Source of the DNA: Streptomyces sp. NBC_00236 | Lineage (GTDB): Bacteria; Actinomycetota; Actinomycetes; Streptomycetales; Streptomycetaceae | Assembly: GCF_036195045.1 (NCBI RefSeq) | Contig: NZ_CP108100.1 | Span: 1,860,001-1,924,000 of the forward strand | DNA: 64,000 nucleotides | Reading direction: 5' to 3' | Part shown: one piece after another, positions 1,292-11,217 of the stretch | Layout: each line of letters opens with the position of its first letter | How positions within the stretch are numbered: the stretch's first letter is position 1 | The notes under the pieces: model-generated | What the model was told of the DNA's origin: nothing | Database searches by the model: none | The model's input: the letters and a program-made list of their open reading frames with translations, nothing else | Position numbers and translations under genes: made by a program

Positions 1292-2026
1292 TCAGCCTCC
1301 GACGGCGACCCCGAACAGGGCGCCCAGGCCGTAGGTGATCGCGGCGGCGGCGCCACCGAGCACCAGCTGGCGCAGTCCGCTGAACCACCAGCTGCGGGCC
1401 GTGACCCGGGCGACGACCGCTCCGCAGCCGAACAGTCCGGCCAGGGCGAGCAGCACGGCGGGCCACATCGCGTCCGCACCGAGCAGATACGGCAGTACGG
1501 GCAGCAGCGCGCCCAGCGCGAAGGCGCCGAAGGAGGACACGGCGGCGACGAGGGGCGACGGCAGGTCGCCCGGGTCGATGCCGAGTTCCTCGCGGGCATG
1601 GATCTCCAGGGCCTGCTCGGGGTCGCGCGACAGCTGCCGGGCGACCTCGCGGGCGAGGCCGGGCTCGACGCCGCGGGACTCGTAGAGCTCGGCGAGCTCC
1701 CGTTCCTCGTCCTTGGGGTGCTTGCGCAGCTCCCGCCGCTCGACGTCGAGCTCGGCCTCGACGAGCTCGCGCTGCGAGGCGACGGAGGTGTACTCGCCGG
1801 CCGCCATCGAGAAGGCGCCCGCGGCCAGACCGGCCAGGCCGGTGATCACGATCGTGCGGTGCGAGACGTCCCCGCCCGCGACACCGGTCATCAGGGCGAG
1901 GTTCGAGACGAGCCCGTCCATCGCACCGAACACCGCCGGACGCAGCCATCCGCCGTTCACGTCACGGTGGGTGTGGTTGTCCCGGTGCGCCTCGTGCAGT
2001 ACGGCGTCGGTCTCGATGATGGACAC
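1292..2026 (-). CDS. VIT1/CCC1-family metal transporter
   Basis: A 244-aa membrane protein starting at a GTG (VSIIETDAVLHEAH) with GAAGGGGAG just upstream; the frame stays open another 30 codons but without a better ribosome site. The segment GWLRPAVFGAMDGLVSNLAL opens the first membrane helix typical of VIT1/CCC1 proteins. AAGAFSMAAGEYTSVASQRE follows, and then a charged Glu-rich cytosolic stretch (residues about 90-150) like the extra domain of bacterial CCC1-type members. Two to three more hydrophobic helices complete the protein. The family exports or sequesters Fe(II)/Mn(II). The specific ion is not readable here. It is transcribed divergently from the ADP-ribosylglycohydrolase operon across a long dyad. 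Confidence 0.85.
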   Translation of the reverse strand: MSIIETDAVLHEAHRDNHTHRDVNGGWLRPAVFGAMDGLVSNLALMTGVAGGDVSHRTIVITGLAGLAAGAFSMAAGEYTSVASQRELVEAELDVERRELRKHPKDEERELAELYESRGVEPGLAREVARQLSRDPEQALEIHAREELGIDPGDLPSPLVAAVSSFGAFALGALLPVLPYLLGADAMWPAVLLALAGLFGCGAVVARVTARSWWFSGLRQLVLGGAAAAITYGLGALFGVAVGG

Positions 2027-2110
2027 AGCTCTCCCCTTCTCCGGCAGCGGAATTCGTACGCTCCGCCCCGCTCGACACCCTCGAAAGTACGCACGAAAAA
2101 TGGCTCCCGC

Positions 2111-2170
2111 CAGCAAGGCAGGCCGTACTTACCACCCTGCGTAACCAGGTAGGTACGCCTTGCCTTGCTG
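2111..2170. promoter_or_regulatory. 60-bp interrupted dyad between divergent transcription units
   Basis: Two 23-base arms (2111-2133 and 2148-2170) are inverted repeats with three mismatches, separated by 14 bases. Both arms begin or end with CAGCAAGGCA or its complement and carry a CGTAC core. The element lies 85 bases upstream of the VIT-type gene and about 120 bases upstream of the ADP-ribosylglycohydrolase operon, so it may be an operator controlling one or both. TAGGTACGCCTTGCCT in the right arm loosely recalls DtxR/IdeR-type iron boxes, which would suit a metal transporter, but only about 11 of 19 positions match. Confidence 0.55.
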
Positions 2171-2289
2171 TCCGAAGGCCGTCATCCGAGTGGCCCTTTT
2201 GTGGGGATAACCGGCCTCTGTCGTGGCTCCGCGTGGCACAGATCCCACAGGGACGAGAACTGGCTCGGTACGAGCGAAGGGTCGACGCG

Positions 2290-3447
2290 ATGGAGCGAGG
2301 CGCAGGAAATCCGGCAGGGCCGCGGACGAACGGCGCGCGGGCAGCGGTACGCGGGGCTCCCGAACCGGCCGCTGCGGCACCGGGCGGCCTCGGTGACCGG
2401 GCCAGGGGTGCGCTGCTGGGTCTCGCGGTCGGCGATGCGCTGGGCGCCCCCGCGGAGAACATGCGGCCCTCCGAGATCCGCCGCCGCTGGGGCCGCATCG
2501 AGGGCTTCGTGAGCGACGACCCGGCGGGCACGGACGACACCGAGTACGCGATCTTCTCCGGGCTGCTGCTGGCCCGGCACGGCTCGGCGCTGACCGTCAC
2601 GCATGTCGAGCGGGCCTGGCACCTGTGGATCGCCGATCTGGACGAGGGGCCGTTCCGGGGTGCCGGTTTCAGCGAGCGCGGCACGCTGGAGAACCTGCGC
2701 CGGGGGCTGGCCGCCCCGATCTCCGCCCAGCACCGGCACGCCTGGAGCGACGGCCTGGCGATGCGGGCGGCCCCCTTCGGCGTCTTCGCGGCGGGCCGGC
2801 CCACCGAGGCGGCGCGGCTGGTCGCGGTGGACGGCCGGGTCAGCCATGAGGGCGAGGGCATCTACGGCGGCCAGGCGGTGGCGGCCGGGGTGGCGGCCGC
2901 GATGACGGGGGCCGGGGTCACCTCCGTGATCGCCGCCGCGCTCTCCGTCGTACCGATGGACTCGTGGACGGCGCGTTCGCTGCGGCGGGCGGTGACGGCG
3001 GCGCAGCGCCCGTATCCCGACCGGCTGACGAGGGAACGGGCGGTGCGCTCGGCCGTCGTCGTCGGCGGATATCCGTGGACGGACCTGGCCCCGGAGGCGG
3101 TGGGCCTGGCCTTCGGCGCGTTCGCGGCGGCGCGCGGCGACTTCCGTACGGCGGTGCTGATGGCGGTCAACATGGGCCGCGACGCCGATACGACAGCCGC
3201 GGTGGCGGGGGCCCTGGCCGGAGCGCTGCACGGGGCGTCCGCCATCCCGCGCCCCTGGGCGGACGCGATCGGACCGGTCCGCGGCAGCTGCCTCCCGTCG
3301 ATGCGCGGCTACCACGTCCTGGACATCGCGGAACTGCTCACCCCGGACGAGACGGAGGAACGGGGCGGGGACGGGCCTCCCCCGCCACCGTCCACGGATG
3401 CGGAGTCGGATGCCGCCCCCGCCACCGCAACGGTGGTGGGGCGATGA
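2290..3447 (+). CDS. ADP-ribosylglycohydrolase family protein 1
   Basis: A 385-aa protein of the ARH/DraG fold. GALLGLAVGDALGAPAE opens the domain, DDTE (residues 82-85) supplies the N-terminal metal aspartates and GRDADTTAA (from residue 296) the C-terminal ones, so the two-metal site looks intact. Family members hydrolyse N- or O-glycosidic bonds to ADP-ribose or related ribosides; the substrate here is unknown. The start with GAAGGG eight bases upstream is preferred over an in-frame GTG at 2233. A Pro/Ala-rich tail of about 40 residues follows the domain. First gene of a coupled operon; its TGA overlaps the next ATG. Confidence 0.88.
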   Translation: MERGAGNPAGPRTNGARAAVRGAPEPAAAAPGGLGDRARGALLGLAVGDALGAPAENMRPSEIRRRWGRIEGFVSDDPAGTDDTEYAIFSGLLLARHGSALTVTHVERAWHLWIADLDEGPFRGAGFSERGTLENLRRGLAAPISAQHRHAWSDGLAMRAAPFGVFAAGRPTEAARLVAVDGRVSHEGEGIYGGQAVAAGVAAAMTGAGVTSVIAAALSVVPMDSWTARSLRRAVTAAQRPYPDRLTRERAVRSAVVVGGYPWTDLAPEAVGLAFGAFAAARGDFRTAVLMAVNMGRDADTTAAVAGALAGALHGASAIPRPWADAIGPVRGSCLPSMRGYHVLDIAELLTPDETEERGGDGPPPPPSTDAESDAAPATATVVGR

Positions 3448-4727
3448 CCACGGCCAGGGACACCCCGCGAACCGAGGCACGAACCGAAGCCGGCCCCGGA
3501 GCCGCGCGGCCGCGCACACCGCGCCGGGCCCGTATCGAGGGGCTGCTGCTCGGGCTGGCCGCCGGGGACGCCGCCGGGTGGCCTGCCGCGCGGCACCGGG
3601 CGGCCCGGATGCCGGAGTGGACCCGGCGCCTGACCCGCGAGCTCGACACCTTCGCCGAGCAGAACGCGACCACCACGCTGCCCGTCCCCATCGCGCTCAA
3701 CCAGCCGCCCGAGCCCCTGCGGCTCGGCCCGTCCGACGACGCCGAATGGGCGGCGTTCGCCGCCGGGACCATCCTCACCTCCGCGGCGGGTGCGCTGCAG
3801 GGCCTGCCCGCGGCTCGCCGGATGCGGGCCGCCGTGGACGCCGCCTGGAACGCGCTGGCAGCCGAGGTCGCCGCCGCGGCCGCCCGGGCACCCGAGGTCG
3901 AGTCGGCGGTCCTCCCGCTGCGGGCCCGGATCTCGGTCCGGGCCGGGCTCGGCAACCTCGCCGCCGGTCTCCGCCCGCCCGCCACGGGGCACGACAACCC
4001 GCACTACTTCGACGACGCGGCGTGTGTGCGGGCCGCCGTGCTGGCCGTCGTGCACCCGGGCGATCCCGGGGCCGCGGCCGACCTCGCGGAGTTCGACGCG
4101 CGCTACACCCAGGACGGCGACGGGGTGCACGGTGCGCGGGCGATGGCCGCCGCGATCGCCGAGGCGCTCGGCGGCGCGGACGTGGACACCGCGGTGAACG
4201 CCGCGCTCGCCCAGCTCCCCGAGGGCACCGAGATCGCCCGCAACGCCGCCCACGCGGTCCGCATCGCCCGCGACTTCGCCGGCGAGCGGGCCGGTGCGTT
4301 CGCCCTCGTACCGGTGCTGGAGCATCAGATCGTCGACCATGTCTACAGCTACGGGATCGCCGCGGCCGAAACGGTCCCCGTCGCCCTCGCCCTGGCCACC
4401 GCGGCGCGGGGCGACATCGCGCAGGCCGTGCCGTCGGCGGCCTGTCTGTCCCGGGTCGCCGACTCGGCCCCCGCCCTGGCCGGTGCGCTCACCGGTGCGC
4501 TGGGCTCGATCACCACCGTGCCCGACGGCTGGCGCGAGGCGTGCCGCACCCTGGCGGGGTGCGCGCTGCCCCGTTTCGCGGGGACGGATCTGATCGAACT
4601 CGCCGGGCTGCTGGCAGACACGGAACCAGCACCCTCGGGTGGACAATTCGGACATGACATCCACAGCGCCCCTGGCGCCCACGAGGTCCGCACCCCCCAC
4701 GACGCCCGCGGCGCCCACCCTCGATGA
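3444..4727 (+). CDS. ADP-ribosylglycohydrolase-like protein 2, altered metal site
   Basis: A 427-aa ARH-fold paralogue overlapping gene 1 by ATGA. GLLLGLAAGDAAGWPAA (residues 34-50) matches the fold's first motif and DDAEW (98-102) the first metal pair. Where the paralogues have GRDxDT or GGWDTD, this one has SRVADS (336-341), so the first C-terminal metal aspartate is Val338. It may bind one metal, be catalytically dead and act as a partner subunit, or use another chemistry. A Thr/Arg-rich leader and a disordered tail flank the domain. The last 74 bases overlap the next gene. Confidence 0.8.
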   Translation: MTTARDTPRTEARTEAGPGAARPRTPRRARIEGLLLGLAAGDAAGWPAARHRAARMPEWTRRLTRELDTFAEQNATTTLPVPIALNQPPEPLRLGPSDDAEWAAFAAGTILTSAAGALQGLPAARRMRAAVDAAWNALAAEVAAAAARAPEVESAVLPLRARISVRAGLGNLAAGLRPPATGHDNPHYFDDAACVRAAVLAVVHPGDPGAAADLAEFDARYTQDGDGVHGARAMAAAIAEALGGADVDTAVNAALAQLPEGTEIARNAAHAVRIARDFAGERAGAFALVPVLEHQIVDHVYSYGIAAAETVPVALALATAARGDIAQAVPSAACLSRVADSAPALAGALTGALGSITTVPDGWREACRTLAGCALPRFAGTDLIELAGLLADTEPAPSGGQFGHDIHSAPGAHEVRTPHDARGAHPR

Positions 4728-5856
4728 ACGGATCGCGGGCGCGCTCGTCGGCGCCGCCGTCGGCGACGCGCTCGGCGGTCCGGTCGAGGGCTACGCCCCG
4801 GAGCAGATCGTGGCGCGCCACGGCGGGCGGATCACCGGCGTGGTCGGTCCGTGGGACGGCGACGACTGGCGTACCGCCCGCCCCATCGCGCCGTACCACA
4901 AGGGCGACGGGCACGTCACCGACGACACCTTGATGACCCATGCGCTGGTACGCGTGTACGGGAAGGTCCGCGACCACCTCGACGCGTACGCCGTCGCCGA
5001 CCACCTCGTGCCGGAGCTGATCTCGAACCCCCGCTGGATTCCGGAACTGGAGGCGGAGGCGCTGCCGCTGCAGCGGATCTTCCTCGCCGAGAAGTGGATC
5101 GTCGCCCGGCTGCACTACGGCCATGTCGACCCGCGTGAGGCGGGCACCGGGAACATCGTGAACTGCGGTGCGGCGATGTACATGGCGCCCGTCGGCCTGG
5201 TGAACGCGGCCCATCCGCAGGCCGCGTACGCCGAGGCGCTGGATGTGGCGGGCGCCCATCAGTCGTCGTACGGGCGGGAGGCCGCGGGAGTCTTCGCGGC
5301 TGCCGTCGCCGCGGCCTGCCTTCCGGGGGCGACGCCCGCGAGCGTGGTCGAGACGTGTCTGTCGCTCGCCAAGGACGGCACCCGGGCCGCGATCGACGCG
5401 GTCTGTGAAACGGCGGTCGGACACCGGGACTTCGAGTCGGCGCTCGTCCCGCTGCGGGAGGCCGTCGCCCCCTTCGACACGGTCGGCCCCGACTACCGCG
5501 CCCCCTCGCTCGGCGCCCGCCGCCCGTCCCGGCTGCACGCCATCGAGGAACTCCCCGTCGCGCTCGGGATGCTGCTGGTCGCGGACGGGGACTACCGGCA
5601 GACGGTCCTCGGCTCGGTCAACTACGGGCGGGACTGCGACTCGATCGCCACGATGGGCGGCGCGATCGCGGGCGCGCTGCACGGCGAACGGGCGGTCCCG
5701 GCCGACTGGGCGACGACGGTCGGCGAGGCCAGCCGGCTCGACCTGCACGCCCCGGCCCGCGTCCTGACCGAGGTCGCCCGCGAGGTGTTCGCCCACGACA
5801 CGGCCCGCCGCCGCGCCCACGAGGCGGCCTTCGCCACGCCGGCGGCCCGGCCATGA
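4654..5856 (+). CDS. ADP-ribosylglycohydrolase family protein 3
   Basis: A 400-aa paralogue with GALVGAAVGDALGGPVEG near the N-terminus, TDDTLM (metal aspartates D90 and D91) and YGRDCDSIATMGGA (D327 and D329), so the dinuclear metal site is complete. The ATG at 4654 is used here; an in-frame GTG at 4639 is an alternative. Either start lies inside the end of gene 2, so translation is probably coupled. A hydrolytic glycosidase is expected from family knowledge; the substrate is unknown. The stop overlaps the next ATG (ATGA). Confidence 0.87.
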   Translation: MTSTAPLAPTRSAPPTTPAAPTLDERIAGALVGAAVGDALGGPVEGYAPEQIVARHGGRITGVVGPWDGDDWRTARPIAPYHKGDGHVTDDTLMTHALVRVYGKVRDHLDAYAVADHLVPELISNPRWIPELEAEALPLQRIFLAEKWIVARLHYGHVDPREAGTGNIVNCGAAMYMAPVGLVNAAHPQAAYAEALDVAGAHQSSYGREAAGVFAAAVAAACLPGATPASVVETCLSLAKDGTRAAIDAVCETAVGHRDFESALVPLREAVAPFDTVGPDYRAPSLGARRPSRLHAIEELPVALGMLLVADGDYRQTVLGSVNYGRDCDSIATMGGAIAGALHGERAVPADWATTVGEASRLDLHAPARVLTEVAREVFAHDTARRRAHEAAFATPAARP

Positions 5857-7262
5857 CGACGACGCTGCGGGCCACCTGGGTCCAGCCCGAGGACCTCGTC
5901 GGGCACGAGTTGCGGCAGGCGGCCGAGGACGGGCGGGACGTCCGGGACATCGAACGCCGGTGGTACGAGGCCGGCGGCTCGCCGGCCCCGGACCGCGCGG
6001 GCGCCTCGGCTCCCCCGGCCCCGCCCGGGCTGCGCGCGGTCGCCGCACATCTGCTGGACGAACTGGCCCTGCTTGATTCGCCGCTGGCCGACGACGAACC
6101 GACCGACCTCGACGCGATCCGGGACGCCTGCCCGCAGTGGCCGCACCCGCGCAACGGGCCGGCCGCCGTGGACCGCGAGCGGCTGCACGCGGCCTGGCTG
6201 GGCCGCGCCGCCGGCTGTCTGCTCGGCAAGCCGGTCGAGAAGCTGCCGCTTGAGGGCATCCGCGCCCTGGCCCGGGCCACCGGCAACTGGCCGCTGAGCA
6301 CCTGGTTCACCGCCCGCGGCGTGCCCCCGGCACTGGCCGCCACCTACCCCTGGAACCGTCGCTCGGCGCCCACCTCGCTGGCCGAGAACATCGACGGGAT
6401 GCCCGAGGACGACGACCTCAACTACCCGTTGCTCACCGTGCTGTTGCTCCAGCGGTACGGCAGTTCCTTCAGCACCGCCGATCTCGCCAGGCTCTGGCTG
6501 GAGGAGCTCCCGGCGGGCCGGACGTTCACCGCCGAGCGCGTCGCGTACCGCAATCTGCTCGACGGCCTCGAACCGCCGGACACCGCCCGTCACCGCAATC
6601 CGTTCCGGGAGTGGATCGGGGCGCAGATCCGTGCCGACGTCCACGGCTGGACCCATCCCGGTGACCCCGGCGCGGCGGCGGAACAGGCGCATCGCGACGC
6701 GGTCCTCACCCACACCGGGAACGGTGTGTACGGCGCGATGTTCACCGCGGCGGCGCTCGCGGAGGCGGCCGGGGGCGAGGCCGATGTGCACGGGTGCCTC
6801 GCCGCCGGCCTGCGCGTGGTGCCGCCGGGTTCGCGGTTCGCGCAGGCCGTACGGGACGGTATCGCCACGGCCCGCGGGGAGGCCCGTTTCGATACGGTCG
6901 TCGACCGGCTGCACACGGCGTACGGCAGGTATCACTGGGTACATGTGCTGCCCAACGCGGCTCTGCTCGCCGCCGCCCTCACCCATGCCGACGGCGACTT
7001 CACCGGCTCGATCTGCCGTGCGGTGTCCGGCGGCTGGGACACCGACTCCAACGGGGCGACCGCCGGTTCGCTCGCCGGCCTGCTGGCCGGGCGGCCGGAC
7101 GCGCTGCCCGACCGGTGGACCACCCCGCTGAAGAACCGGCTCGCCACGTCCGTCCCCGGTTTCGACTCGGTCGGCTTCGACACCCTCGCCGACCTGACCC
7201 ACCGGCTCACCCGGCTCACCCGGCTCACCCGGCTCACCCACGAGGAGGCACTCCGCCCATGA
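5853..7262 (+). CDS. ADP-ribosylglycohydrolase family protein 4
   Basis: A 469-aa, more divergent paralogue. About 110 N-terminal residues of unrecognised sequence precede the ARH core, which opens with WLGRAAGCLLGKPVEKLP, the variant first motif of the larger ARH-like proteins. EDDDLNYPLL (residues 185-194) and SGGWDTDSNGATAGS (D396 and D398) provide metal aspartates. The C-terminus carries a short tandem RLT repeat from near-identical CGGCTCACC units (about 7203-7238), which could vary in number between strains. Overlaps both neighbours by ATGA. The function is inferred from the fold only. Confidence 0.85.
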   Translation: MTTTLRATWVQPEDLVGHELRQAAEDGRDVRDIERRWYEAGGSPAPDRAGASAPPAPPGLRAVAAHLLDELALLDSPLADDEPTDLDAIRDACPQWPHPRNGPAAVDRERLHAAWLGRAAGCLLGKPVEKLPLEGIRALARATGNWPLSTWFTARGVPPALAATYPWNRRSAPTSLAENIDGMPEDDDLNYPLLTVLLLQRYGSSFSTADLARLWLEELPAGRTFTAERVAYRNLLDGLEPPDTARHRNPFREWIGAQIRADVHGWTHPGDPGAAAEQAHRDAVLTHTGNGVYGAMFTAAALAEAAGGEADVHGCLAAGLRVVPPGSRFAQAVRDGIATARGEARFDTVVDRLHTAYGRYHWVHVLPNAALLAAALTHADGDFTGSICRAVSGGWDTDSNGATAGSLAGLLAGRPDALPDRWTTPLKNRLATSVPGFDSVGFDTLADLTHRLTRLTRLTRLTHEEALRP

Positions 7263-8143
7263 CCAAAGTCGCGGTGCTCGGCAGCACCAATATGGATCTT
7301 GTGGCCTACGTCGACCGGGCTCCGGAACGCGGGGAGACCGTCACCGGGCGGGAGTTCCGCACGATTCCCGGCGGCAAGGGCGCCAACCAGGCCGTCGCCG
7401 CCGCCCGCGCGGGCGGCGACGTGATGATGATCGGCGCGGTCGGCGACGACGAGTACGGCGCCCGGATGCGGGAGAACCTGGAGCACTCCGGAGTCGACAC
7501 CGATCTCCTGCACACCGCGGAGGGGCCGAGTGGCACCGCGCACATCGTGGTCGATGCCAAGGGGTCCAACGCGATCGTCGTCATCCCCGGCGCCAACGGC
7601 ACCGTCACCGCACTCGGCCCGGGTGAGATCGCCGCCATCGCCGAGGCCGATCTGCTGCTGCTCCAACTGGAACTGCCGCTGACCGCCGTGATCGAGGGGG
7701 CACGGGCCGGTCACGCCCAGGGGGTGCGGACGGTCCTCACCCCGTCCCCCGTACAGGAACTGCCCGCCGAACTCCTCGACTGTGTCGACCTGCTGATCGC
7801 CAATGAGCACGAGGCGGCCGAACTGTCGGGGCACGCCGAACCGCACGCGGCGGCCGAGATCCTGCTCGGTCAGGTGCCCGCGCTCGTCATCACACTCGGT
7901 TCGAAGGGCTGCCTGTACGCGGCACGGGGCAGCCAGACCGTCCACTTCCCGGCCCCCGAGGTGACCTCCGTCGACACCACCGGCGCCGGTGACACGTTCG
8001 CCGGCACGCTCGCCGTGGCGCTCGGCGAGGGACGGCCGGTGCCGCAGGCCATCGCCTGGGCCTCGTCGGCCGCCGCGCTCTGCGTCCAGAAACCGGGCGC
8101 CTCGATCTCCATGCCGTACCGCAGCGAAATCGACGCCGCATGA
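7259..8143 (+). CDS. PfkB-family carbohydrate kinase, ribokinase type
   Basis: A 294-aa kinase. GGKGANQAVAAAR (residues 38-50) is the PfkB signature that binds the sugar, and DTTGAGDTFAGTLAVALG (from residue 239) holds the anion hole and catalytic base Asp245. N-terminal VAVLGSTNMDLVAYVDRAP and GAVGDDEYGARM fit ribokinases closely. It most likely phosphorylates ribose or a similar sugar. Its place directly after four predicted ribosyl-hydrolases suggests it captures the released sugar, but that link is inference. The symbol rbsK is withheld because no ribose transporter adjoins it. ATGA overlaps on both sides. Confidence 0.87.
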   Translation: MTKVAVLGSTNMDLVAYVDRAPERGETVTGREFRTIPGGKGANQAVAAARAGGDVMMIGAVGDDEYGARMRENLEHSGVDTDLLHTAEGPSGTAHIVVDAKGSNAIVVIPGANGTVTALGPGEIAAIAEADLLLLQLELPLTAVIEGARAGHAQGVRTVLTPSPVQELPAELLDCVDLLIANEHEAAELSGHAEPHAAAEILLGQVPALVITLGSKGCLYAARGSQTVHFPAPEVTSVDTTGAGDTFAGTLAVALGEGRPVPQAIAWASSAAALCVQKPGASISMPYRSEIDAA

Positions 8144-9339
8144 GCGCGCCGGGAGCAGCCCCCCTGACCGGGCTGCGCGTCATCGATCTCGCCACGCTGT
8201 TCGCGGGCCCCCTGTGCGCCACGATGCTGGGCGACTTCGGCGCCGATGTGATCAAGGTCGAGCATCCGAGCAAGCCCGATCCGTCCCGGGGGCACGGCCC
8301 GACGAAGGACGGGGTCGGTCTGTGGTGGAAGCTGCTCGGCCGCAACAAGCGCAATCTCACTCTCGATCTGGCCTGCCCGGGCGGCCGCGACCTCCTGCTG
8401 CGGCTCGCCGCCGACACCGACGTGATCATCGAGAACTTCCGGCCGGGCACGCTGGAGCGGTGGGGTCTCGGGCCGGCGGAGCTGCACGCCGTCAACCCGC
8501 GTCTGGTGCTGGTCCGGGTCACGGGCTTCGGCCAGTTCGGCCCGTACGCCCACCGGCCCGGCTTCGGCACGCTCGCGGAGGCGATGAGCGGGTTCGCGGC
8601 GATCACCGGGGAGCCGGACGGCCCTCCGACGCTGCCGCCCTTCGGTCTCGCCGACTCGATCGCGGCGCTCGCCACGTCGTTCGCCGTGATGGCGGCGCTG
8701 GCCGGCCGGGACCGTACGGGCGTGGGCCAGGTCGTCGACATGGCGATCATCGAGCCGATCCTGATGGTGCTCGGCCCGCAGCCGCTCTGGTACGACCAGC
8801 TCGGTTACGTCCAGCCACGCACCGGCAACCGTTCGCGCAACAACGCCCCGCGCAACACCTACCGCACCTCGGACGGGCAGTGGGTGGCCGTCTCCACGTC
8901 GGCGCAGTCCGTCGCGGAGCGGGTGATGCGCCTGGTGGGCCGGGAGGAGCTGACCGAGGAGCCGTGGTTCGCCTCGGGCGCCACCCGGGCCGAGCACAGC
9001 GACGAACTCGACGAGGCGGTCGGCCACTGGATCGGGCGGCGCACCCGGGACGAGGCGATCTCCGCGTTCGAGAAGGCGGAGGCGGCCATCGCACCCATCC
9101 AGGACATCCGTGACGTGATGGAGGATCCGCAGTACCGGGCCCTGGACTCCATCACGGAGGTCGACGATCCGGAGCTGGGTCCGCTGCGGATGCAGAACGT
9201 CCTCTTCCGGCTCTCGGGCACCCCCGGGGGCATCCGCTGGGCGGGGCGGCCGCACGGGGCGGACACGGAGGAGATCCTCACCGGGCTCGGGCTGAGCGGC
9301 GAGGAGATCGCGGCACTGCGGTCGGAGCGTGTCCTGTGA
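8140..9339 (+). CDS. Class III CoA-transferase (CaiB/BaiF family)
   Basis: A 399-aa protein with the full family layout: GLRVIDLATLFAGPLCATML at the N-terminus, GADVIKVEHP, the RNKRNLTLDL stretch and IIENFRPGTLERWGLG. Asp172 in GLADSIAAL matches the catalytic aspartate of formyl-CoA transferase-type enzymes. It moves CoA between carboxylic acids; the acid is not identifiable. With the next gene it forms an activate-then-cleave pair like the CoA-transferase/lyase pairs known for malate, citramalate and itaconate. The first four bases overlap the kinase gene and the last four overlap the lyase gene. Confidence 0.9.
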   Translation: MSAPGAAPLTGLRVIDLATLFAGPLCATMLGDFGADVIKVEHPSKPDPSRGHGPTKDGVGLWWKLLGRNKRNLTLDLACPGGRDLLLRLAADTDVIIENFRPGTLERWGLGPAELHAVNPRLVLVRVTGFGQFGPYAHRPGFGTLAEAMSGFAAITGEPDGPPTLPPFGLADSIAALATSFAVMAALAGRDRTGVGQVVDMAIIEPILMVLGPQPLWYDQLGYVQPRTGNRSRNNAPRNTYRTSDGQWVAVSTSAQSVAERVMRLVGREELTEEPWFASGATRAEHSDELDEAVGHWIGRRTRDEAISAFEKAEAAIAPIQDIRDVMEDPQYRALDSITEVDDPELGPLRMQNVLFRLSGTPGGIRWAGRPHGADTEEILTGLGLSGEEIAALRSERVL

Positions 9340-10157
9340 CCGCCGAGACGCCGCTGACGTGGCTGTACGTCCCGGGCGACCGGCCTGATGTGGTGCGCAA
9401 GGCGCGGGACTCCGGGGCGGACATGGTGATCGTCGACCTGGAGGACGCGGTCGCCCCCGACCGCAAGGAGTACGCACGGTCCGCCGCCGTCGAGCTGCTC
9501 TCCGACCCGGCCTCCCCCACACAGGCGCCGGTCCACGTCAGGGTCAACGACGAGACGGACGTGCTGGCCCTGGCGGGGCTGCCGGGTCTCGCCGGGCTGC
9601 GGCTGCCGAAGATCACGCATGCCGCGTCCGTCCACCACATCGCGGCGCTGGCCCCGGGGGTCGCGCTCTGTCCGCTGCTGGAGTCGGCGCTCGGCATCGA
9701 GCACGCGTACTCGGTGGCCGCCGCCCATCCGCAGGTGCGTTCCATCGCCCTCGGGGAGGCGGACCTCCGGGCGGATCTGGGGGTGCGCGAGGATGCGGGG
9801 CTCGACTGGTCGCGCAGCCGGGTGGTGGTCGCGGCCAGGGCGGCGGGTCTTGCCCCGCCCACCCAGTCGGTGTTCCCGGACGTCCGGGACCTGGACGGGC
9901 TGTGGACGTCCTGCGCCCACGGGCGGGCGCTGGGGTTCCTCGGCCGGGCGGCGATCCACCCCCGGCAGCTCCCGGTGATCGAGCGGGCGTTCCGGCCGAC
10001 GCCGCAGGAGGTGGAGGCCGCGCAGGAGATCGTCGAGGCCGCCCGGGTCGAGGCGGGTGCGCTGGCCCTGCCGGACGGCCGCTTCGTCGACGCGGCGGTG
10101 GTGGCCCAGGCACACCGCACGCTGGCCCTGGCGGAATCGAGCCCGTCCGGCGATTGA
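9336..10157 (+). CDS. HpcH/HpaI aldolase / citrate lyase beta-like (CitE-type) CoA-ester lyase
   Basis: A 273-aa TIM-barrel protein starting at a GTG that overlaps the CoA-transferase stop. LYVPGDRPDVVRKARDSGAD and VIVDLEDAVAPDRKEYAR are the CitE N-terminal signatures, PLLESALGIEHAYSVA carries the metal-binding Glu, and GEADLRADLG the following Asp. LGRAAIHPRQLPVIERAF near the C-terminus is also typical. The family cleaves 3-hydroxyacyl-CoA esters (malyl-, citramalyl- or methylmalyl-CoA) in a Mg-dependent retro-Claisen reaction. Last gene of the operon; a strong hairpin follows 26 bases later. Confidence 0.87.
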   Translation: MTAETPLTWLYVPGDRPDVVRKARDSGADMVIVDLEDAVAPDRKEYARSAAVELLSDPASPTQAPVHVRVNDETDVLALAGLPGLAGLRLPKITHAASVHHIAALAPGVALCPLLESALGIEHAYSVAAAHPQVRSIALGEADLRADLGVREDAGLDWSRSRVVVAARAAGLAPPTQSVFPDVRDLDGLWTSCAHGRALGFLGRAAIHPRQLPVIERAFRPTPQEVEAAQEIVEAARVEAGALALPDGRFVDAAVVAQAHRTLALAESSPSGD

Positions 10158-10183
10158 GGGCACCGTGCCGCAGACACGGACAT

Positions 10184-10218
10184 GACGAGGGCCGCCGAAT
10201 CGTTCGGCGGCCCTCGTC
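10184..10218. terminator. Bidirectional terminator between CitE-like gene and lgt
   Basis: Perfect 16-bp stem (GACGAGGGCCGCCGAA and its complement) with a three-base TCG loop, located between two converging genes. It can serve both transcripts. Confidence 0.9.
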
Positions 10219-10236
10219 GTCGTATGTGCGTCGACG

Positions 10237-11217
10237 TCAGCCCTTGGCCGTCTCCGCCTCACCGTTCGTCTTCGACGCGTCCTGGTCGGCTTCGGCGTCA
10301 GCTTCGGCCGGCTTCGTGTCGGCGGACTCCGTGTCGCCGTCCTCGGCCTCGCCGGACTCCGTGTCCTCGGCGGCTTCGCCGTCCTTGGCCTCGGGTGTCT
10401 CCGACGCCCCCGGCTCGACGATCTCCTCGCGCCCCGGCCGTACCTTCGCCGAGATCACGATGTACACCACCGCGAGCACGAACATGATCAGCGCGGTCCA
10501 CACGTTCAGACGCAGGCCCAGGATGTGGTGGGCCTCGTCGACGCGCATGTACTCGATCCAGGCACGGCCCGCGCAGTACGCGGCGACGTACAGCGCGAAC
10601 GCCCGTCCGTGGCCGAGCTTGAAGCGGCGGTCCGCCCAGATCACCAGGAGCGCCACGCCGATGCACCACAGCGACTCGTAGAGGAAGGTCGGGTGGTACG
10701 TGCCGGCCACCCGGTTGGGGCCCTCGCTGATCTTCACCGCCCACGGGACGTCGGTCGCCCGCCCGTAAAGCTCCTGGTTGAACCAGTTGCCCCAGCGGCC
10801 GCAGGCCTGGGCCAGGGCGATGCCGGGGGCGAGCGCGTCGGCCCAGGCGGGCAGCGGGATCCCGCGGCGGCGGCAGCCGATCCAGGCACCGACCGCACCG
10901 AGCGCGATCGCGCCCCAGATACCGAGGCCGCCCTGCCAGATCTTGAAGGCGTCGACCCAGTTCTCACCGTCGCTGAAGTACAGCTGGTAGTCGGTGATGA
11001 CGTGGTAGAGCCTGCCGCCGACCAAGCCGAAGGGCACGGCCCAGACGGCGATGTCGGCAACCGTGCCGGCTCTGCCGCCTCGGGCGACCCAGCGCTTGTT
11101 GCCGAACCAGACGGCGACGAAGACACCGATGATGATGCAGAACGCGTAGCCGCGGAGCGGGATCGGTCCGAGATCGATCACGCCGGTCGACGGGCTGGGA
11201 ATGTAGGCAAGATTCAT
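10237..11217 (-). CDS. lgt: Prolipoprotein diacylglyceryl transferase
   Basis: A 326-aa polytopic membrane enzyme that transfers diacylglycerol from phosphatidylglycerol to the lipobox Cys of prelipoproteins, the first step of lipoprotein maturation. Signatures include the IPLRGYAFCIIIG helix, WQGGLGIWGAIALG, RWGNWFNQELYGRATDVPW and the C-terminal RAWIEYMRVDEAH segment. The last 60 residues form an acidic, Glu/Ala-rich cytoplasmic tail beyond the usual enzyme core, a common extension in streptomycetes. lspA, the next enzyme in the pathway, is at 57.6-58.3 kb. Confidence 0.96.
   Translation of the reverse strand: MNLAYIPSPSTGVIDLGPIPLRGYAFCIIIGVFVAVWFGNKRWVARGGRAGTVADIAVWAVPFGLVGGRLYHVITDYQLYFSDGENWVDAFKIWQGGLGIWGAIALGAVGAWIGCRRRGIPLPAWADALAPGIALAQACGRWGNWFNQELYGRATDVPWAVKISEGPNRVAGTYHPTFLYESLWCIGVALLVIWADRRFKLGHGRAFALYVAAYCAGRAWIEYMRVDEAHHILGLRLNVWTALIMFVLAVVYIVISAKVRPGREEIVEPGASETPEAKDGEAAEDTESGEAEDGDTESADTKPAEADAEADQDASKTNGEAETAKG

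Follow-up and report, generated by a model that had tools for sequence, protein, structure and literature searches.

ADP-ribosylglycohydrolase (ARH) family proteins are best known for the removal of ADP-ribose tags. What, then, is the role of four such proteins encoded next to a sugar kinase, a CoA-transferase and an acyl-CoA lyase, as found in a 64,000-nucleotide stretch of a Streptomyces genome (hereafter the window)? On balance, these seven genes appear to be the enzyme half of an operon for the breakdown of an imported glycosylated organic acid. The literature found contains no description of the seven-gene operon.

The seven overlapping plus-strand open reading frames all lie where the preliminary description had placed them (2290-10157), and their identification as four ARH proteins, a kinase, a CoA-transferase and a lyase is confirmed (Table 1). 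Alternative GTG starts are possible for arhA (in frame, at 2233) and arhC (at 4639), while the open frame of arhB spans 2964-4727. Consecutive genes overlap by four bases, ATGA at 3444, 5853, 7259 and 8140 and GTGA at 9336, and arhB and arhC overlap by 74 bases, or by 89 if arhC begins at 4639. Internal promoters or terminators had been named beforehand as evidence that would count against a single transcription unit. A pattern scan of positions 2000-10400, covering sigma-70-type sites and T-run terminators only, returned no match inside the operon, and splitting of the operon by such signals was rejected; its three matches (one promoter-like, two terminator-like) all lie below 2200, upstream of arhA. 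The hairpin downstream of L is a possible transcript end.

Table 1. Features of the locus, with positions counted from the first nucleotide of the window.
Feature	Positions	Strand	Remarks
Spacer between divergent VIT-like gene and arhA	2027-2289	.	Relatives' LacI operator not found within
ArhA, PF03747 hydrolase (putative)	2290-3447	+	ATG start; 211.2 bits; metal-binding residues complete (E, T-D-D, D-x-D-T)
ArhB, PF03747 protein, probable pseudo-hydrolase	3444-4727	+	112.6 bits; lacks conserved E and first D of D-x-D
ArhC, PF03747 hydrolase (putative)	4654-5856	+	ATG start; 169.6 bits; metal-binding residues complete; widest core
ArhD, PF03747 hydrolase (putative)	5853-7262	+	165.8 bits; E-D-D variant of T-D-D site; widest core
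K, ribokinase (putative)	7259-8143	+	Above TIGR02152 cut-off
T, class III (CaiB/BaiF) CoA-transferase	8140-9339	+	PF02515, 413 bits
L, CitE/RipC-like acyl-CoA lyase (HpcH/HpaI fold)	9336-10157	+	PF03328, 104.5 bits
Hairpin, 18-bp stem, between L and convergent lgt	10182-10220	+	Fold of 10155-10230, z = -5.5; no U-run

All four ARH proteins score above the curated PF03747 cut-off of 26.2 bits, and the genome holds ten PF03747 genes, six of them outside the operon. The E of GDxxGxxxE, [ST]-D-D and D-x-D-[ST] are presumably the metal ligands of PF03747 hydrolases. Counting only aligned rows with a letter at the position concerned, the E and the Asp residues are kept in 80/80 and 84/84 rows for ArhA, in 97/97 and 99/99 for ArhC, and each in 101/101 for ArhD, in which the S/T position of [ST]-D-D is occupied by E in 98 rows, A in 2 and R in 1. 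By these residues, A, C and D group with the catalytically competent members of the family, and ArhB, with two ligands gone, does not. In ArhB, by the same count, 83 of 83 rows have A, G, R, V or M instead of the conserved E, and 93 of 93 have V, L, T, I or N at the first D of D-x-D; the second D of this motif survives in 92 of 93, and D-D is intact in 93 of 94. Because two metal ligands are lost in every aligned row, ArhB is probably a non-catalytic partner, or pseudo-hydrolase; its partner would most likely be ArhA. The predicted model of ArhB has the ARH fold at moderate confidence (mean pLDDT 70.1), as does that of ArhD, compared by Foldseek (73.7, likewise moderate). At its N-terminus, ArhD carries an additional helical stretch of about 110 residues. 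In a tree of 53 chosen rows, where the A and B proteins of locus L179 form long branches, A, B, C and D fall into four separate deep clades in 96-100% of 200 bootstrap trees, and the ArhB clade is the sister of the ArhA clade. Since the four form separate clades, recent tandem amplification of one ARH gene was rejected.

Such enzymes could simply remove ADP-ribose from proteins, nucleic acids or small molecules, with K recycling the ribose and T-L forming an unrelated acid pathway in the same operon. Indeed, the four belong to the Pfam family of DraG, ARH1, ARH3 and Tri1, the models of B and D match the fold, and A, C and D carry the metal-binding motifs. SCO2028-2031, the probable orthologues of the ARH genes, are listed as uncharacterised DraG/ARH homologues in the accessible part of PMC9411070, as are SCO2028-2030 in that of PMC5087735. 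However, the operon context differs, B lacks two ligands, and a scan of A, C and D for the equivalogs DraG (TIGR02662, cut-off 337 bits) and Tri1 (NF041672, cut-off 490 bits) gave scores far below both, at 77 and 54 bits for A and 48 and 44 for C, with no match for D. According to the accessible part of PMC13036486, activity of SCO2028 and SCO2030 on U-ADPr, a single substrate, was not detectable. The linkage of sugar importer and LacI genes in two operon forms, with one operator ahead of the set, also speaks against the reversal of ADP-ribosylation, which we regard as unlikely.

This linkage emerged from the gene-neighbourhood survey across actinobacteria that the preliminary description had proposed: the set holds together, and relatives add a sugar ABC importer and a LacI repressor. 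Of the named Streptomyces loci, 70 leave room for A, and 69 of these carry A-B-C-D side by side, L090 alone being without A; T-L come next in order in 79 of 80; the VIT label in that survey marks a position only (off-frame query). The arrangement is unlikely to be accidental, as the gene order is kept in these loci and also in other Actinomycete groups, at about 36-81% protein identity. Judged by sequence comparison, the operon in the window is only part of an ancestral operon, which in other Actinomycetes has the order LacI-permease-permease-sugar-binding protein-(A-B)-C-D-(K)-(c10)-T-L. The operon is present in 19 of 20 further loci, with Pfam names for the genes of one locus. All 19 have both permeases, the sugar-binding protein (SBP), A, C and D; LacI, B, T and L are each found in 18, K in 16 and c10 in 10. 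The order is altered in L179, with linkage retained. Within the same genus, L218 carries LacI-F-G-SBP-A-B-C-D-K-T-L in one piece. L219 keeps the importer and K without the ARH genes, T and L.

A lean form, LacI-F-G-SBP-C-D-(K)-c10-T-L, in which none of the genes carries the label A or B, was found at 18 loci in a search of 347 genomes and probably belongs to the Micrococcales, the relatives' taxa being read from protein names (Jiangellaceae and Ruania; Microbacterium, Georgenia and Pseudactinotalea, hence Micrococcales). With C and D only in the lean operons and two metal ligands missing from ArhB, the earlier suggestion that the ARH paralogues remove successive sugar groups is weakened. The operon is patchy: of 200 genomes of the family, 60 have C, as do 43 of 246 genomes of the class and, in the order of the lean form, 20 of 347. 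Genes in fetched loci were called by a simple codon-score script, with the first residue set to M; where a locus differs in composition (L254, L255), the script overlooks genes.

CUT1/LacI carbohydrate operons of Actinobacteria comprise a regulator, two permeases, a binding lipoprotein and a kinase. The relatives' operons have all of these and, with linked LacI, importer and operator, belong to the LacI-controlled CUT1 type, but ARH-fold enzymes take the usual place of the glycoside hydrolase and an acid module is added. The operator TGGAAACGTTTCCA, a consensus derived from the same loci as those scored, occurs with at most three mismatches in 33 of 35 lacI upstream windows, against none of the 133 remaining upstream windows in these operons and 7 of 1750 shuffles. 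The single operator ahead of the set and the linkage to importer and LacI across Actinomycetes agree with the initial claim of one functional, catabolic unit; the stoichiometric pathway or complex read there from the gene overlaps carries less weight. The solved binding proteins nearest to SBP are sugar binders of many kinds, and none of the labelled operon genes encodes an ATPase. The transporter, LacI and c10 lie outside the window and were hence invisible to the preliminary description.

Neither LacI nor operator was found at the locus in the window, which falls outside the LacI-controlled CUT1 type: the best operator match in 1-2400 has five mismatches, and no close LacI was found in the genome, the best being 39% identical. 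The genome's own importer is a three-gene F-G-SBP cluster 4.9 Mb from the operon; the SBP orthologue encoded there is 57% identical and scores 519 bits, the runner-up reaching 63 bits. Whether the split importer and the operon share an operator in Streptomyces was also considered, and the idea was dropped: no clear shared motif was visible by eye in ten genomes and this one, and in L197 the sole site within three mismatches of the LacI operator sits on the border of an unrelated gene, with 5.7 kb between it and the permease. When three 147-genome searches are taken as one sample, ArhD and SBP are both present in 77 genomes, ArhD only in 20, SBP only in 5 and neither in 45, in counts that ignore phylogeny. 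An importer match at E 1e-60 is missing in 20 of 97 operon genomes, as might be expected if the operon served intracellular salvage of NAD- or nucleoside-derived ribosides and the importer were a secondary addition. A parallel for salvage is provided by Escherichia coli yegTUV, which, in the accessible part of PMC10819704, unites a nucleoside-type transporter, the ARH-like YegU and the putative sugar kinase YegV in one repressed operon. This resembles the present combination of transporter, ARH-like protein and sugar kinase, yet yegTUV has a single ARH-like gene, an MFS transporter and a GntR-family regulator, without CoA-transferase or lyase. Because permeases and SBP are present in 19 of 19 operon loci, and SBP in 18 of 18 lean loci, the importer looks ancestral, and salvage appears very improbable.

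If the substrate is an imported glycoside, its sugar is probably ribose. K scores 303.2 and 304.8 bits in two scans, above the TIGR02152 ribokinase equivalog cut-off of 299.65, and is the only gene of the genome to do so. However, 24 of 80 named Streptomyces loci lack K, the gene went uncalled in 7 of 18 lean loci, and two K proteins of the lean form reach 273 and 232 bits. Since K is missing from many loci and these two fall below the cut-off, ribose is not certain, and the "ribosylated" acid initially proposed, which depends on K, loses ground. The sugar could be another pentose or furanose (arabinofuranose, apiose, fructose), with K acting as a broader PfkB kinase. Besides the gaps in K, such a sugar would suit CUT1-type importers and LacI regulators, which fit many sugars, and c10, whose N-terminal part has no Pfam match beside a SUMF1/FGE-like C-terminal part; ARH enzymes, on the other hand, are known for ribose-type linkages, and with K of the window above the ribokinase cut-off another sugar seems rather doubtful. 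Ribokinases elsewhere in the genome add little to the case for ribose: of 34 operon genomes for which no adjacent K is listed, 33 have one, against a base rate of 42 of 50 genomes without the operon. Because the ribokinase row is unlisted for seven of these 34 genomes (one has none), K may adjoin the operon in some of them. Nor did c10, which has numerous homologues in Micromonospora, serve as a key to the sugar: beyond matches to its SUMF1/FGE-like part, a profile search of solved structures gave a single chain, at E 0.22.

The acid module can be characterised by class. The LADS stretch of T contains an Asp that lines up with one in solved relatives, e.g., 4ed9, 4hl6 and 9br7, and we take this residue to be the catalytic Asp of class III CoA-transferases; this alignment and the PF02515 score place T in that class. 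The nearest solved relatives of L are the acyl-CoA lyase beta chain 8khl/9nzb and citrate-lyase-type chains, and its best NCBIfam model is RipC (NF038242), at 152.4 bits under a cut-off of 375. Since neither T nor L reaches any NCBIfam equivalog cut-off, the kind of acid is a guess; we infer a malate/citramalate-type acid. The itaconate degradation system to which RipC belongs likewise has a CoA-transferase followed by a CitE-type lyase. In contrast to that system, no itaconyl-CoA hydratase gene was found among the seven window genes or the relatives' labelled operon genes, T is class III, the RipC score falls short, and the operon is linked to ARH genes and, in relatives, to a sugar importer.

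Altogether, what the sequences show directly, namely gene content, linkage, operator, metal-site states and the split of the importer, suggests a model in which, in the ancestral form, the LacI repressor would sense a sugar or glycoside and free one promoter, and the CUT1-type ABC importer (binding lipoprotein and two permeases) would carry the glycoside inward. In the cytoplasm, the ARH-fold hydrolases A, C and D would cut glycosidic, probably ribofuranosyl, bonds, with ArhB as a non-catalytic partner, most likely of ArhA. K would phosphorylate the freed ribose and T would put CoA onto the freed acid, after which L would split the beta-hydroxyacyl-CoA, probably into acetyl-CoA and a 2-oxo acid. 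The Streptomyces lineage seen here would have relocated the importer and lost LacI. More tentatively, the ARH fold may have been recruited across Actinomycetes for a set of glycosidases that act on a small imported molecule, a ribofuranoside of a malate/citramalate-type acid. Both the catabolic pathway and its class of substrate would then be undescribed, and the pathway would include A-B, a hydrolase and a pseudo-hydrolase that stay paired in several families.

Because the importer, the LacI operator and the T-L acid module offer three separate handles on the substrate, its identity becomes directly testable in a laboratory strain. The accessible part of PMC9411070 names three transferases and eight DraG/ARH homologues. 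If four of these homologues were nutrient enzymes, their surplus over the transferases would partly vanish, and the annotation of bacterial ARH proteins would need revision.

The genome that holds the stretch (G000:C1:1860001-1924000) is 8.33 Mb in size, and its seven-gene operon encodes four PF03747 proteins of the ADP-ribosylglycohydrolase (ARH) family, ArhA to ArhD, followed by a ribokinase, a class III CoA-transferase and a CitE-like lyase (see the table). A long hairpin lies between the operon end and lgt, and the divergent gene on the other flank is presumably VIT-like. Between the latter and arhA, an imperfect inverted repeat was noticed by eye (GCAAGGC..GTAC.TACC / GGTA.GTAC.GCCTTGC), which is partially conserved in relatives and may be where an iron regulator acts on the VIT gene. 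At the C-terminus of ArhD, where conservation is poor, a short tandem repeat codes for LTRLTRLTR. ArhA to ArhD probably have their orthologues in SCO2028-SCO2031, to judge by the four consecutive tags of these ARH genes; two reports list them as DraG/ARH homologues that are uncharacterised (PMC9411070; PMC5087735 for SCO2028-2030).

Features in the stretch, its genome and related loci
Feature	Coordinates	Description
Operon arhA-arhB-arhC-arhD-ribokinase-CoA-transferase-lyase	2290-10157	Seven genes; five junctions with 4-base overlap, one with 74-base overlap
Flanking gene	1292-2026	VIT-like (presumed); divergent from operon
lgt		Other flank of operon; convergent
Inverted repeat	2106-2175	Imperfect
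Tandem repeat	~7200-7250	ArhD C-terminus
Importer cluster, own genome	C1:6.81 Mb	Three genes, permease-permease-binding protein; holds the binding-protein orthologue
One-ARH cluster	L187:3969-9681	Lone D-like ARH, ROK-type regulator, sugar-binding protein, two permeases; another family of the phylum
c10	L178:12352-14253 (example)	~640 residues; SUMF1/FGE-like C-terminal domain; in 10/19 operon loci
Gene after the lyase		Last gene of L247, L248, L252, L253, L256; first large gene of L249
D-like ARH neighbourhoods	L208:7344-10065; L209:8953-11999; L210:8968-14319	Three other genomes of the same genus

The operon was present in 19 of 20 loci fetched from relatives, and all 19 combine two permeases and a sugar-binding lipoprotein with ArhA, ArhC and ArhD. 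A LacI regulator, ArhB, and the CoA-transferase and lyase each occur in 18 of the 19 and the ribokinase in 16, ArhB being found only in pieces in L176 by tblastn; the gene order of L179 is CoA-transferase-lyase-LacI-permease-permease-lipoprotein-C-D-A-B. At the twentieth locus (L187), a single D-like gene is accompanied by a ROK regulator and an importer, which amounts to a one-ARH variant of this arrangement. Among CG-centred palindromes, AAACGTTT cores turned up 18 times, in each case upstream of lacI. With up to 3 mismatches, TGGAAACGTTTCCA matched 33 of 35 lacI upstream windows, versus 0 of 133 upstream of the first permease, lipoprotein, arhA and arhC genes, and 7 of 1750 shuffles; this consensus was taken from the very loci then scored, and the weight therefore rests on the internal controls. 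Because a single candidate operator heads the entire gene set, its placement argues for one inducer and one putative pathway.

In the order of L179's genome, ArhC was found in 20 of 347 genomes at the search threshold, and 18 loci remained after exclusion of the query's own genome and one short-contig genome. These have a lean operon (LacI-permease-permease-lipoprotein-C-D-(ribokinase)-c10-CoA-transferase-lyase), in which no gene was labelled arhA or arhB in any of the 18. Genes were called for the lipoprotein in 18, c10 and the CoA-transferase in 17 each, LacI in 16, the lyase in 15 and the ribokinase in 11, counts that include two poorly called loci (L254, L255) and one that stops at a contig edge (L263). 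The protein c10 has numerous homologues in Micromonospora; its SUMF1/FGE-like domain is joined to an N-terminal part of ~450 residues that has no Pfam match. Six lean loci share a gene of ~730-820 residues, with a secretion-signal-like start, directly after the lyase gene; it encodes a PF00756 esterase in both loci tested (L249, L253) and may act extracellularly to set the substrate free.

The layout with LacI and importer beside the enzyme genes looks ancestral; in the lineage of the stretch, the importer lies apart from the operon. Its genome has one orthologue of the lipoprotein (57% identity, 519 bits; next match 26%, 63 bits), its best LacI reaches 39% identity, and no match to the relatives' operator was found upstream of arhA. 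In L218, from the same genus, all eleven genes, LacI and importer included, are in one piece beside lgt. Importer and operon tend to occur in the same genomes: of 147, 77 have both lipoprotein and operon-type ArhD, 20 ArhD only, 5 the lipoprotein only and 45 neither (Fisher p ~1e-16, uncorrected for phylogeny). Four of the five lipoprotein-only genomes were looked at: the operon is damaged in G039, the importer and ribokinase are kept in G132, and only the importer lies within the fetched stretch in G079 and G123.

The distribution of the operon is patchy. Among 80 named Streptomyces loci from a scan with ArhD, the best 80 of at least 582 related stretches, 69 carry A-B-C-D in order by tblastn; ten of the other 11 stop close to a contig edge, and L090 has no ArhA despite 6.9 kb of room. 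The CoA-transferase and lyase lie downstream in 79 (L096 has neither), and the ribokinase is present in 56 and missing from 24. Operon-type ArhD (at least 486 bits) occurs in 97 of 147 genomes of the order sample, and ArhC in 60 of 200 family genomes and 43 of 246 class genomes (9 of 103 genera). ArhB (E <=1e-12) is found in 9 of 296 phylum genomes, eight of them from the genus of the stretch and one a weak match. Separately, L208, L209 and L210 have a D-like ARH (44-46% identity) near genes named by eye as NUDIX-like and sirtuin-like, a neighbourhood that would fit O-acetyl-ADP-ribose handling.

A tree built from 53 chosen rows places each of the four proteins in a clade of its own, with ArhB sister to ArhA (91/76 support) and six other ARH genes of the genome outside all four clades. 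ArhA, ArhC and ArhD keep the E, D-D and D-x-D residues in all aligned rows with a letter there. ArhB lacks the E in 83 of 83 such rows and the first D in 93 of 93; its remaining Asp residues are kept in all rows except L179. The equivalent ligands of human ARH3 are E41 and D314, for which E41A, D314A and D314E mutants are among the solved structures, by their titles. The models of ArhB (best Foldseek matches 1t5j, ARH3 and DraG) and ArhD have the ARH fold. Since two ligands are missing while the fold is retained in its model, ArhB is probably a non-catalytic member, retained for regulation or structure. It may pair with ArhA, given that the two are neighbours, are sister clades and are both missing from the lean form. 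The sole biochemical result found is that SCO2028 and SCO2030 are reported to have no detectable activity on U-ADPr (PMC13036486).

Solved relatives of the CoA-transferase are CaiB/BaiF enzymes, succinate-hydroxymethylglutarate CoA-transferase among them, and the Asp of the family is aligned. For the lyase, the closest matches are the beta chain of an acyl-CoA lyase and further proteins of the citrate-lyase type, and the E of its LLES and the D of its GEADL stretches align with solved relatives. Because no hydratase is found among the operon genes, the chemistry of the family suggests that the acid should already bear a beta-hydroxy group, as in malate or citramalate. The kinase scores over the ribokinase cut-off and is the sole such gene of its genome; a ribokinase is encoded elsewhere in 33 of 34 operon genomes with no adjacent one listed, versus 42 of 50 non-operon genomes. 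The sugar is likely ribose.

No account of this operon was found in the literature searched. The nearest described arrangement is yegTUV of E. coli, whose function is reported as unresolved (PMC10819704). Judged from sequence, the operon would work like a carbohydrate catabolic operon, and what is new in it is that ARH-fold enzymes are used together with a CoA-transferase/lyase module.
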